NCBI GenBank assembly: GCA_000817115.1
Contig: JUEO01000001.1
Location: 248,001 to 312,000 of the forward strand
Source of the DNA: a marine actinobacterium MedAcidi-G2B
Lineage (GTDB): Bacteria; Actinomycetota; Acidimicrobiia; Acidimicrobiales; MedAcidi-G1
Length of the DNA stretch: 64,000 nt
Direction of reading: 5' to 3'
Both the position numbers and the translations under genes were made by a program. The notes under the pieces were generated by a model. That model did no database searches and had not been told where the DNA came from. It saw only the letters and a program-made list of their open reading frames with translations. Below, in pieces: positions 43,150-46,712 of the stretch (position 1 is the first letter of the stretch; each line of letters opens with the position of its first letter).

Positions 43150-44133
43150 CTAGTCTTTTCGATCTTGTGCCGCTAACGCCCAAGATAGTCCTTCAAGGGG
43201 ATCTTCAACCGCAACTTTGAGCTTCCATCCTTTCGAAAGCGGATCATCATCCCATATCCACCAATTCATCTCGTTTAAGGCTTGATTTAAATCGTTAGTA
43301 TCTGGTGGCCAAATATTTTCTTGATCTAATCCAGCTAAAGCAGTAGCACACCACCAGACTTCAAAACGTCCTTTAGCATTGCCTGGTCGACGACCAAACG
43401 CTCCTCCTGAAGAAGCAGCCCAAGTCATATGTTTCCAAATCTCAGAGAGAGTAACCTGCTTAGCTTTAACTTCTCTGACCCCTAATGAAGAAATTGCTGT
43501 CGCCGCACTCCCATCAACCCTTACTGCCGTAGAACTCCCATTTGACTGATCTGTCCATGTTTGAACAAGGTTACGTAGGGCCTCGGTGGCTGAATCATGT
43601 TCTATTGCGCTAGGACTAGGTAAAGCAAGAGGACTTAACTCCTCAAAACTTGGAGCTGTATCTGCGACTGCATATTTTTCTATCTGAATACTTTTGATAG
43701 AGCATTCCCATTCTGTAAGAAATAGAGGAAGGTCAAGAGGGTCTTCTTTCAGCTTGAGATCAGACAAGTCTTCACCTCGAAAAACTCTTTCATGAGCAAT
43801 TAATGCTCGAAAAAGATCAGAAGACAAGTATGAGGAAATCTCCTCCCATGTATGAGAAGAAGCAGCAACTTCAGTGAGAGGAGCCAAACCAAAAACTTGT
43901 GCATCTCGATCTACGGCTCGTGCAGCAAATTCTCCAGGAGACTCAAGAGCAAGGCGATGTTCCGCATGATCCCCAGCAGGCCAGAGCTGATGACCTCTGT
44001 CGCTGGCTTGCCGAGAACGAATAGCAATGCTTTCAAGAAGTGGCCAAGATTTATCTACACAACATTGATCAATCAATCGCAGAAGTCCATCTAGATCACC
44101 AAGCTCGAGCAAATGATCAAGATCACTATTCAT
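43150..44133 (-). CDS. Unknown protein in the SCO1664/DUF3090 operon
   Basis: A 327-residue soluble protein with no signal or membrane helix. The N-terminus is acidic and Leu-rich (DLDHLLELGDLDGLLRLIDQCC). The C-terminal part is Trp-rich: HMTWAASSGGAFGRRPGNAKGRFEVWWCATALAG, then MNWWIWDDDPLSKGWKLKVAVEDPLEGLSWALAAQ. I do not recognise the family. It starts in a 4-base overlap with the kinase-like gene and is the last gene of a four-gene coupled operon, so it probably works with those proteins. Confidence 0.75.
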   Translation of the reverse strand: MNSDLDHLLELGDLDGLLRLIDQCCVDKSWPLLESIAIRSRQASDRGHQLWPAGDHAEHRLALESPGEFAARAVDRDAQVFGLAPLTEVAASSHTWEEISSYLSSDLFRALIAHERVFRGEDLSDLKLKEDPLDLPLFLTEWECSIKSIQIEKYAVADTAPSFEELSPLALPSPSAIEHDSATEALRNLVQTWTDQSNGSSTAVRVDGSAATAISSLGVREVKAKQVTLSEIWKHMTWAASSGGAFGRRPGNAKGRFEVWWCATALAGLDQENIWPPDTNDLNQALNEMNWWIWDDDPLSKGWKLKVAVEDPLEGLSWALAAQDRKD

Positions 44134-44885
44134 AGAAGTGGCCAGGGGACACGACGCCCAGTCGTATCATGAGGAAGAGTTCCGCCGGAACATACCGCCT
44201 GAACTCTAGAAATTAGAGCATCGACTTCCATGGCAGTCAGGAGATCTAGTAGAGGTTCTGAAGGCCCTTCAGAAAGGAATTGATTCAAGTCGTCAATCAA
44301 ATTTGAATCAATTGGTTCACCAGCCCAGTCCCAAATAACAGTCCGAACTTTGAATTGATGATGAAAATTTAAGGCATTATCAACCGCCCAAATTTTGCCA
44401 TCTTTGCCCTCTAGAACATGGCCTGCTTTCCGGTCAGTGTTATTCGATATCAGATCAAATACAGCCAGTTTTTTTAGTTCCTTCAAGTGAGAAGGGTTGT
44501 CACGTAGCGAGAAATAATGCTGTTCATAATCGCACGGGATGTATAGCTGAATTGATCCTTTACCAAGCGGTCCAGAACGAGTCACGGTTGGGGGGATCAT
44601 CCCCCAGCCGAGTTGTTTTGCTAGTTCCCAAGTAGCTACTTCACGTATATAAATTCCAGGGGGAAAGTCATGAAGAGGTCTTTCGCCAGAAGAAGGTTTG
44701 TACACACCTTGAATAAATGAATTATTAAAGCTGATATCAACTAAAAAAGTCGCATTTGAAGACCAAGGCATACGTCCCAGAACGTCTAGTTCGCCTTCCA
44801 TCAACATTCTTATAGCTAAAGAATCTTCTAGAGGGCCACGGTCTCTAAAAGGGCTAGAAGCATCTGAAGACCCATCAGTTTGCAC
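44130..44885 (-). CDS. SCO1664-family phosphatidylinositol 3/4-kinase-like protein
   Basis: About 251 residues. Kinase-like landmarks are SNATFLVDI and QGVYKPSSGERPLHDFP (the Lys of YKP could contact ATP), FDLISNNTDRKAGHVL (catalytic-loop-like) and WAVDNALNFHHQF (metal-binding Asp-like). This matches the actinobacterial SCO1664 family, annotated as PI3/4-kinase-like, with unknown substrate. I prefer the GTG at 44885, which overlaps the DUF3090 stop by 11 bases; an ATG at 44807 or a start at 44960 are alternatives. It overlaps the next gene by 4 bases. Confidence 0.8.
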   Translation of the reverse strand: MQTDGSSDASSPFRDRGPLEDSLAIRMLMEGELDVLGRMPWSSNATFLVDISFNNSFIQGVYKPSSGERPLHDFPPGIYIREVATWELAKQLGWGMIPPTVTRSGPLGKGSIQLYIPCDYEQHYFSLRDNPSHLKELKKLAVFDLISNNTDRKAGHVLEGKDGKIWAVDNALNFHHQFKVRTVIWDWAGEPIDSNLIDDLNQFLSEGPSEPLLDLLTAMEVDALISRVQAVCSGGTLPHDTTGRRVPWPLL

Positions 44886-45375
44886 AAGGGCACCAACCCT
44901 CGTTGGTTGACTCCAATGGGGCTTCACACCAAGGACAAGGAGGTCTCCCAGCGTCAACAAGATCTCTAGCCTGCGCTATGAACGTCGCAACTTGCTGACG
45001 GTTTAATGGGAATCGAGCTTGGGCGGGAATATCGTCCTCATCGCGTAAGAGCTCTTCTGCGAAGAGAATTATTCGATCGTTACTTTGTTGATAAGTGACA
45101 CCAAGACTTCCAACTACCCAAGCAGGTTCCCCAGGCTCAATGAATGAATCATCTGAGGAGAGAAAGTCTTCGCCTTCTAGGTCGGAAGGCGGGAGGTCAT
45201 CAAGCATTCGGTTCAGGAACTCTGCAAGACCTGCGACTTGCTGTTTTTCTAGTTTGAGCGAAATCAGATCATTTATCCGTCTTGCTTGCAGGTAGAAAAC
45301 CCTTCTTCCTTCAGGCCCGGTTGTACCTGCGGTAAATGAATCAGTATCTTCCCAGTTGATTTCCAGACCACTCAT
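44875..45375 (-). CDS. DUF3090 family protein with C-terminal Cys cluster
   Basis: A 166-residue protein. The body is acidic (PPSDLEGEDFLSSDDSFIEPGEPAW) and the C-terminus holds a zinc-ribbon-like CPWCEAPLESTNEGWCPCAN with four Cys. This matches the actinobacterial DUF3090 family found beside SCO1664 homologues. Function unknown. It overlaps the phosphomutase-like gene by 4 bases and the kinase-like gene by 11, so the operon is translationally coupled. Confidence 0.85.
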   Translation of the reverse strand: MSGLEINWEDTDSFTAGTTGPEGRRVFYLQARRINDLISLKLEKQQVAGLAEFLNRMLDDLPPSDLEGEDFLSSDDSFIEPGEPAWVVGSLGVTYQQSNDRIILFAEELLRDEDDIPAQARFPLNRQQVATFIAQARDLVDAGRPPCPWCEAPLESTNEGWCPCAN

Positions 45376-46013
45376 GATGCCACCAAATTACTAAGCGGTC
45401 CGCTGTTATTCATTGTTAGGACAATAGGCCGATTTTCGTTATACAGAACAGCGCTCGCAGAACAAGGACCAACAACGATTCTCTGAAAGAGGTCTAGAGG
45501 AGTTCCTAATGCTGCAGCTAAAGCGGCTTTGATTGGATCTGCATGCGAAACACAGATGATAGTTTCATTCGGATGCTTGGAAACTAGATCAGATACCTGA
45601 GAAGTTATTCGAGCTTGCATTTCCATAAATGACTCGCCTCCAGGAAAACGAAATTGTGATGGTTGAGACTGGACAGTCCGCCAGTCTTGGAGTTTGAAAA
45701 GGTCCTTCAATTTTCTTCCAGTCCATTTACCAAAGTCGCATTCAATTAAGCCTTTCGCAGTACGAACGCGTCGACCAACTGCTTTAGCTATAGGAGCGGC
45801 AGTTTCTTTTGTTCGTTCCATCGGGGAAGCGTAAATGGCAGAAACTTCTTTGCCAAGAAAAAATGGTTCTCCAGCACTTATATGGGCAGCCACAGATTCT
45901 GCTTGTTTTTTTCCAGAATCAGAAAGATGAAGATTGGGGGCACGTCCAGGTAGAACAGCCCCAGTAGTTGGAGTACTTCCGTGACGAATATAAAGAACAA
46001 GTGTGGAGGTCAT
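45372..46013 (-). CDS. MSMEG_4193-type histidine phosphatase
   Basis: A 213-residue phosphoglycerate-mutase-fold protein. LYIRHGSTPTTGAVLPGRAPNLHLS (His at about residue 9), IYASPMERTKETAAPIA, GLIECDFGKWTGRKL and ICVSHADPIKAALAAAL carry the catalytic His pair, Arg and Glu. It resembles the actinobacterial MSMEG_4193 putative phosphomutase family. First gene of the four-gene operon; its start is only 24 bases from the divergent uracil-DNA glycosylase start. Confidence 0.87.
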   Translation of the reverse strand: MTSTLVLYIRHGSTPTTGAVLPGRAPNLHLSDSGKKQAESVAAHISAGEPFFLGKEVSAIYASPMERTKETAAPIAKAVGRRVRTAKGLIECDFGKWTGRKLKDLFKLQDWRTVQSQPSQFRFPGGESFMEMQARITSQVSDLVSKHPNETIICVSHADPIKAALAAALGTPLDLFQRIVVGPCSASAVLYNENRPIVLTMNNSGPLSNLVAS

Positions 46014-46037
46014 GGCTTAATAATCTACCCTGCCAGA

Positions 46038-46712
46038 GTGGATCCGATTCGAACTTTAGGGAAAGTAAACAAAGAAGTGACTCTGTGCATCGCCTGCCCA
46101 CGTTTAGTTGACTGGAGAGAGAAAGTTTCAATTGAAAAACGTGCAGCCTTCATCGAAGAAGAATATTGGGGTAAAGGAGTTCCAGGTTTTGGAGATGAGA
46201 AGGCGCGTATCCTCATAGTGGGACTTGCTCCAGCAGCTCATGGGGCAAACCGCACAGGCAGAGTATTCACCGGAGACAGGTCGGGGGATTTTTTATTTGC
46301 TGCCTTACATAGGGCGGGGCTAGCTAACCAACCTGACTCAACGAACCGTGAAGATGGCTTAGAACTAAATGATGTTTATGTGACAGCCCCTGTCAAATGT
46401 GCTCCTCCAGCAAATAAACCTACTCCTGAAGAGAAAGCAAACTGTCGGCCGTTCTTTCAACGAGAATTACAGGCACTTGACCAAGTGAAAGTAGTTTTGG
46501 TGCTCGGTCAGATCGGATATCAATCAACAGCCACAGAGCTGGGATTAAATCCCAAACCAAAATTTGGACATGGAGTAGAAGCTTCTCTCCCAAACGGAAA
46601 AACTATTCTCTGCTCCTACCATGTGAGTCAACAAAATACTTTTACGGGAAAACTAACAGAGCCGATGTTTGATTCAGTTTTGAGGAGAGCTAAAGATCTC
46701 GCTAAAGCCTAA
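46038..46712 (+). CDS. Type 5 uracil-DNA glycosylase (UdgB-like)
   Basis: About 224 residues. CIACPRLVDWREK near the N-terminus supplies iron-sulfur Cys, ILIVGLAPAAHGANRTGRVFTGDRSGDFLFAALHRAGL is the UDG core, NDVYVTAPVKCAPPANKPTPEE follows, and LCSYHVSQQNTFTGKLTEPMFD is the family-5 C-terminal motif. It removes uracil (and related bases) from DNA. GTG at 46038 is my chosen start; the longer in-frame reading would overlap the divergent gene. Confidence 0.87.
   Translation: MDPIRTLGKVNKEVTLCIACPRLVDWREKVSIEKRAAFIEEEYWGKGVPGFGDEKARILIVGLAPAAHGANRTGRVFTGDRSGDFLFAALHRAGLANQPDSTNREDGLELNDVYVTAPVKCAPPANKPTPEEKANCRPFFQRELQALDQVKVVLVLGQIGYQSTATELGLNPKPKFGHGVEASLPNGKTILCSYHVSQQNTFTGKLTEPMFDSVLRRAKDLAKA

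Follow-up and report, generated by a model that had tools for sequence, protein, structure and literature searches.

A conserved actinobacterial kinase/phosphatase gene set with a DUF6183 gene in a marine actinobacterium, and its association with inositol-phosphate synthase

The protein families SCO1664, DUF3090 and MSMEG_4193 (TIGR03843, TIGR03847, and TIGR03848, respectively) are known as a conserved actinobacterial trio encoded side by side. A 2013 review described SCO1664 as invariably close to mshC (PMC4255298), the DUF3090 family has been described as putative metal-binding (PMC9425974), and the Mycobacterium tuberculosis histidine phosphatase Rv2135c was measured to be an acid phosphatase with no mutase activity (PMC3866925). 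A literature search for DUF6183, TIGR03843, TIGR03847, and TIGR03848 found no paper. Within inositol chemistry, the phosphatase converting PIP to PI in mycobacteria was described as yet-unidentified in 2019 (PMC6506517) and likewise in PMC4634129, a PgpA-like enzyme carries out this conversion in Bacteroides (PMC9246714), and MshA2 is drawn as the phosphatase step from GlcNAc-Ins-P to GlcNAc-Ins (PMC4360819, PMC2628429).

The window, which is the whole stretch of 64,000 nucleotides analysed here, carries four minus-strand genes, referred to as H, Z, K, and D (Table 1). The first three belong to the same three families in the same side-by-side arrangement and are kept together in the taxonomic order of the window, as expected from an earlier note that had read them as the known actinobacterial set. 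The locus is unlike the known trio in that H and Z score slightly below the NCBIfam cut-offs, a DUF6183 gene stands in fourth place, and mshC is not nearby. The proposal of an undescribed system in the same note does not hold wholly, since the link between SCO1664 and mshC was published in 2013 (PMC4255298) and the activity of Rv2135c has been measured (PMC3866925). The present analysis adds the family and spread of D, the close structural match between K and type II phosphatidylinositol (PI) 4-kinases, and the association with INO1.

Table 1. Features of the H-Z-K-D locus, with positions counted along the window.
Feature	Position	Strand	Details
H, histidine phosphatase branch 1, closest to the MSMEG_4193 "putative phosphomutase" subfamily	45372..46013	-	213 aa, ATG, first gene
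RHG motif of H, residues 10-12, catalytic His 11	45978..45986	-	from translation
Z, DUF3090	44875..45375	-	166 aa, ATG, second gene, 4-base overlap with H
C-terminal Cys cluster of Z, CxxC...CxC, residues 147-164, putative metal site	44884..44937	-	from sequence
K, SCO1664-family kinase	44130..44885	-	251 aa from GTG 44885, third gene, 11-base overlap with Z
Invariant Lys 63 of K, expected ATP-binding lysine	44697..44699	-	alignment of 30 members
Catalytic loop of K, NNTDRKAGH, residues 148-156, expected catalytic Asp 151	44418..44444	-	N148, D151, R152, K153, H156 invariant
Invariant Asp 169 of K, expected metal-binding Asp	44379..44381	-	alignment of 30 members
D, divergent DUF6183	43150..44133	-	327 aa, ATG, fourth gene, 4-base overlap with K
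Signature of D, GGAxGRRxGxAxGRF, residues 243-257, just before Trp 260-261	43363..43407	-	invariant or nearly so (21 relatives)

The overlaps of 4, 11, and 4 bases described previously were found in the open reading frames. Both 4-base overlaps (H/Z and K/D) are of the ATGA type, and the 11-base overlap of Z and K holds only with GTG 44885 as the start of K. The mechanical reading frame of K opens at TTG 44960; same-genus relatives align from GTG 44885 onward, which places the start of K at the end of Z, and this start is therefore preferred. Such tight overlaps do not extend to most other genera, where the K-D gap is some 5-112 bases, so that translational coupling is largely a trait of this genus. 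The four genes are probably co-transcribed. Downstream of the operon, an ETF alpha gene is convergent on D. A gene for a family-4-like uracil-DNA glycosylase (45981-46712, plus strand) is divergent from H and is a neighbour kept in relatives; its true start is likely GTG 46038, with ~24 bases between its start codon and that of H. A promoter scan found no site at the start of H and nothing beyond chance. An 11-pair G+C-rich inverted repeat (CGGTTGGGGGGATCATCCCCCAGCCG, 44585-44610) lies within the coding region of K and is probably coding-driven. The assembly carrying the operon is 1.44 Mb in size and 85% complete.

Pfam and NCBIfam matches agreed on H as a histidine phosphatase, as had been noted before. 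It was matched by His_Phos_1 at 2.4e-43, and its translation carries RHG at residues 10-12 and, closer to the C-terminus, SHAD, as found in branch 1. TIGR03848 (MSMEG_4193) was the best of 12 NCBIfam families with 196 bits, and because this is below the cut-off of 203.85, H is filed only as a histidine phosphatase nearest to the MSMEG_4193 subfamily. Rv2135c, which we take to be the orthologue of H, is likewise a histidine phosphatase, but has RHA where H has RHG. Z was matched by Pfam PF11290 (1.1e-30, 107 bits against a cut-off of 27) and by TIGR03847 with 109.1 bits, just under the cut-off of 117.25. A search by sequence for solved structural relatives of Z or D found none.

K was assigned to TIGR03843 with 236.6 bits (cut-off 172.4), covering 252 of 253 model positions. 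Its structure was predicted from 26 sequences with a mean pLDDT of 88.3, and the best PDB matches of the model were type II PI 4-kinases (Foldseek E 3e-8; VIA Z score 18.6, 3.2 A over 216 residues). Fam20, CtkA, and HipT/HipA followed with VIA Z scores of 16.1, 13.2, and 11.2-10.2, respectively. PI3_PI4_kinase was the commonest Pfam match, found in 24 of the 26 family members (best 9.3e-7), and HipA_2 was also matched by six of them, while by sequence the best PDB profile match of K was FAM20A (E 0.003). An alignment of 30 members from across the phylum shows no variation at Lys 63, Glu 82, Asn 148, Asp 151, Lys 153, His 156, and Asp 169, whose catalytic roles are assigned by motif and fold and not from a solved complex. 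Since the predicted fold matches and the catalytic residues are invariant, the model makes K a convincing kinase of the PI3/PI4-kinase-like superfamily, in agreement with the earlier description of the SCO1664 protein as kinase-like. K resembles PI4KIIalpha/beta over nearly the whole domain at 20% identity, including the superfamily Lys, the catalytic-loop Asp, and the metal Asp; unlike them it is bacterial, much smaller, and no more than a putative lipid kinase. The Fam20 and HipA/CtkA kinases share the superfamily but score lower, at 10-16. These kinases act on proteins or xylose, and Fam20 is secreted. The fold thus leaves the type of substrate unfixed, because the next-best matches Fam20, CtkA, and HipA phosphorylate proteins or sugars.

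The earlier note could not name a family for D; the profile search placed it in DUF6183 (PF19681), with 35.6 bits against a gathering cut-off of 26.6 over residues 90-273. A DUF6183 match at E 0.01 was obtained for 15 of 21 relatives of D. In the sample surveyed, strong matches of 178-295 bits occurred in one genus of large-genome actinobacteria only, and D, which passes the gathering score but lies far below these, is by sequence a divergent member of the family. The Trp-rich character reported for D is reflected in 11 Trp columns that are invariant in the 21 relatives. The predicted structure (pLDDT 91.9) consists of N-terminal helical repeats at residues 1-118 and a C-terminal alpha/beta domain at about 174-327, which contains the GGAxGRRxGxAxGRF signature. 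Foldseek returned no significant match for the D model. In the VIA list for residues ~174-327, the RNA polymerase III repressor Maf1 stood at the top four times (Z score 7.0-8.0, 3.2-3.7 A over 119-127 residues). Unrelated proteins can also reach a Z score of 7-8, which is too low to name a function for D, and the resemblance is a weak lead only. From the architecture of the model and the linkage of its gene, D may be an accessory or scaffold protein.

K and D were surveyed across the phylum in 296 genomes, with one marginal K match set aside and related genomes counted as independent. D occurred in 52 genomes, which fall into 16 family groups, K occurred in 120, and K was present in 44 of the 52 genomes with D compared to 76 of the 244 without. 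The first of these counts also answers the question of whether D is mostly found without the other genes, as it is accompanied by K in most of its genomes. Together with the DUF6183 match, the presence in 16 families rules out D as a lineage-specific orphan; the earlier note had considered it a possible lineage-specific partner. In the own genome and its relatives (n = 61), K occurred in 58 and D in 34, and one sister genus had K without D in every genome examined. Wherever D is present in the order of the window, it follows closely after K, with Z ahead and H too where the contig allows.

The gap between the matched stretches of K and D was -1 to 64 bases in 12 of the 13 genomes of the order with both genes and 3.8 kb in the thirteenth, while in the 31 such genomes outside the order K and D were on different contigs or far apart. 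Among 79 D loci in the genome collection, K was directly upstream on the same strand in 53, two loci were cut by contig ends, and 24 were non-adjacent. With K directly upstream of D in 53 of these 79 loci, the H-Z-K-D arrangement is kept much more often than chance would allow. One of the 24 non-adjacent loci had H-Z-K ~1 kb upstream, and K was found elsewhere in the genome in 14 of 20 genomes with non-adjacent D. At L158:4289-6945, K and D share one neighbourhood with ~1 kb between them, which may be an intermediate of the linked and unlinked states. D is a widespread co-traveller of K and forms an operon with it only within the order of the window. On a tree of D, adjacency to K required at least six changes by parsimony, clustered by lineage; the tree gives no direction. 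Unlinked D genes had two recurring neighbour layouts, read from translations as GreA, SDR, metallo-hydrolase, acyl-CoA dehydrogenase, and DnaE-like, and no functional theme emerged among these generic-looking genes.

Six loci (L087, L090, L094, L102, L120, and L133) carried a stretch of 1.4 kb between H and Z (e.g., L133:3321-4721). In the three loci read, this was a gene for a ~470-aa alkylsulfatase-type metallo-beta-lactamase in the same direction, and the copy in L133 was matched by Lactamase_B and Alkyl_sulf_dimr in Pfam. None of the four proteins was matched by a PADLOC model at E 0.01, and a defence system was ruled out on this basis.

The published association with mshC was found again in part. 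All 29 genomes with an MshC over the curated cut-off had K, which was located within 1.7 kb in 27 of them. A second class of MshC-like proteins with about 340-446 bits, between true MshC at over 590 and CysS-like matches at roughly 300, occurred in 49 of 296 genomes including the own genome, and K was present in 44 of the 49. This class may represent either a deeply branching MshC lineage or a distinct ligase. Outside the window, a CysS-like (301 bits) and an MshC-like gene (433 bits) stand in tandem at G000:C1:218317-220710. With K as a proxy for the set, strict co-occurrence with mycothiol was not found, as 47 of the 120 K genomes lacked an MshC-like protein over about 340 bits. Of the 120 genomes with K, 116 had INO1 (inositol-phosphate synthase), compared to 90 of the 176 without K; it was present among genomes without an MshC-like protein in 44 of 47 with K compared to 86 of 171 without. 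Because INO1 covers 44 of the 47 K genomes that lack an MshC-like protein, the set statistically follows inositol-phosphate synthesis more closely than mycothiol, an association that shared ancestry could partly explain. The 90 INO1 genomes without K indicate that inositol metabolism can do without the set. INO1 is encoded in the own genome, together with MshA-, MshB-, and MshC-like genes. The mycothiol genes of this genome lie away from the operon, at a distance of ~72 kb for the MshC-like gene, and no direct linkage of the operon to mshC was found in the order of the window.

The reading we tentatively lean towards, at less than even chances, is that K and H work as a kinase/phosphatase pair on a substrate containing inositol, assisted by the accessory proteins Z and D. 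The four genes would form one transcription unit built on the conserved actinobacterial kinase/phosphatase set. K would use ATP to phosphorylate a molecule that carries inositol, the likeliest being an inositol phospholipid or a soluble glycosyl-inositol from the mycothiol route, and H would dephosphorylate that compound or a neighbouring one. Z, which has the Cys cluster, may be a structural or regulatory partner, and D, with its helical repeats and small alpha/beta domain, an accessory or scaffold working with the set, a partnership suggested because K is present in 44 of the 52 D genomes. The co-transcription of the genes, the inositol in the substrate, the single pool shared by H and K, the direction of the reactions, and the roles of Z and D are parts that we infer. 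The inositol-substrate reading is put forward because the K model is topped by type II PI 4-kinases, with PI3_PI4_kinase matches and invariant catalytic residues, because INO1 tracks K even without an MshC-like protein, because all 29 MshC genomes have K and the own genome holds INO1, MshA-, MshB-, and MshC-like genes, and because Rv2135c, taken as a relative of H, is an acid phosphatase without mutase activity. Nevertheless, K may be a Fam20-, HipA-, or CtkA-like protein kinase with H as its counter-phosphatase, the regulated protein perhaps being Z or D and no inositol substrate being involved. This is somewhat unlikely; one operon with a kinase, a phosphatase, and non-enzymatic partners would fit, and Fam20 (16.1), CtkA (13.2), and HipT/HipA (11.2-10.2) come next in structure, with FAM20A as the best PDB sequence-profile match (E 0.003) and HipA_2 in six members, but type II PI 4-kinases score higher, PI3_PI4_kinase is the commonest Pfam match, and the INO1 association would be left unexplained.

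A role confined to mycothiol, with H as MshA2 (GlcNAc-Ins-P to GlcNAc-Ins) and K tuning precursor supply, is given a slim chance. The presence of K in all genomes with MshC over the cut-off, 27 of 29 within 1.7 kb, the linkage noted in PMC4255298, the drawing of MshA2 as a phosphatase step (PMC4360819, PMC2628429), and the MshA-, MshB-, and MshC-like genes of the own genome would agree with it, whereas 47 of 120 K genomes without an MshC-like protein over about 340 bits, the distance of the operon from mshC in the order of the window, and the lack of a clear job for K speak against it. A similarly slim chance is given to four unrelated housekeeping neighbours whose cluster persists by operon inertia; the 470-aa metallo-beta-lactamase gene of the alkylsulfatase type between H and Z in several relatives and the unlinked D outside the order are consistent with such a history, but the H-Z-K block is kept across the order, and D goes along with K even where the two are unlinked. 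Within the preferred inositol-substrate reading, H is a reasonable candidate for one of two phosphatase steps in actinobacterial inositol metabolism that appear to have no gene assigned, PIP to PI and GlcNAc-Ins-P to GlcNAc-Ins, and to our knowledge MshA2 has no gene assigned. It is quite unlikely that K and H are specifically a bacterial phosphoinositide kinase and phosphatase, with H catalysing the step from PIP to PI, K the reverse or a second phosphorylation, e.g., to the PI 3-phosphate that mycobacteria are reported to make under stress, and D as a dedicated regulator. Synthesis of PI 3-phosphate in mycobacteria was reportedly described by Morita et al. in 2010, and we know of no kinase identified for it.

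A conserved kinase/phosphatase pair that tracks INO1 opens the questions of the PIP phosphatase, MshA2, and PI 3-phosphate to direct test. The importance would be high if H or K does fill an open inositol step and moderate otherwise, and the set is a testable candidate for the missing steps in actinobacterial inositol chemistry.
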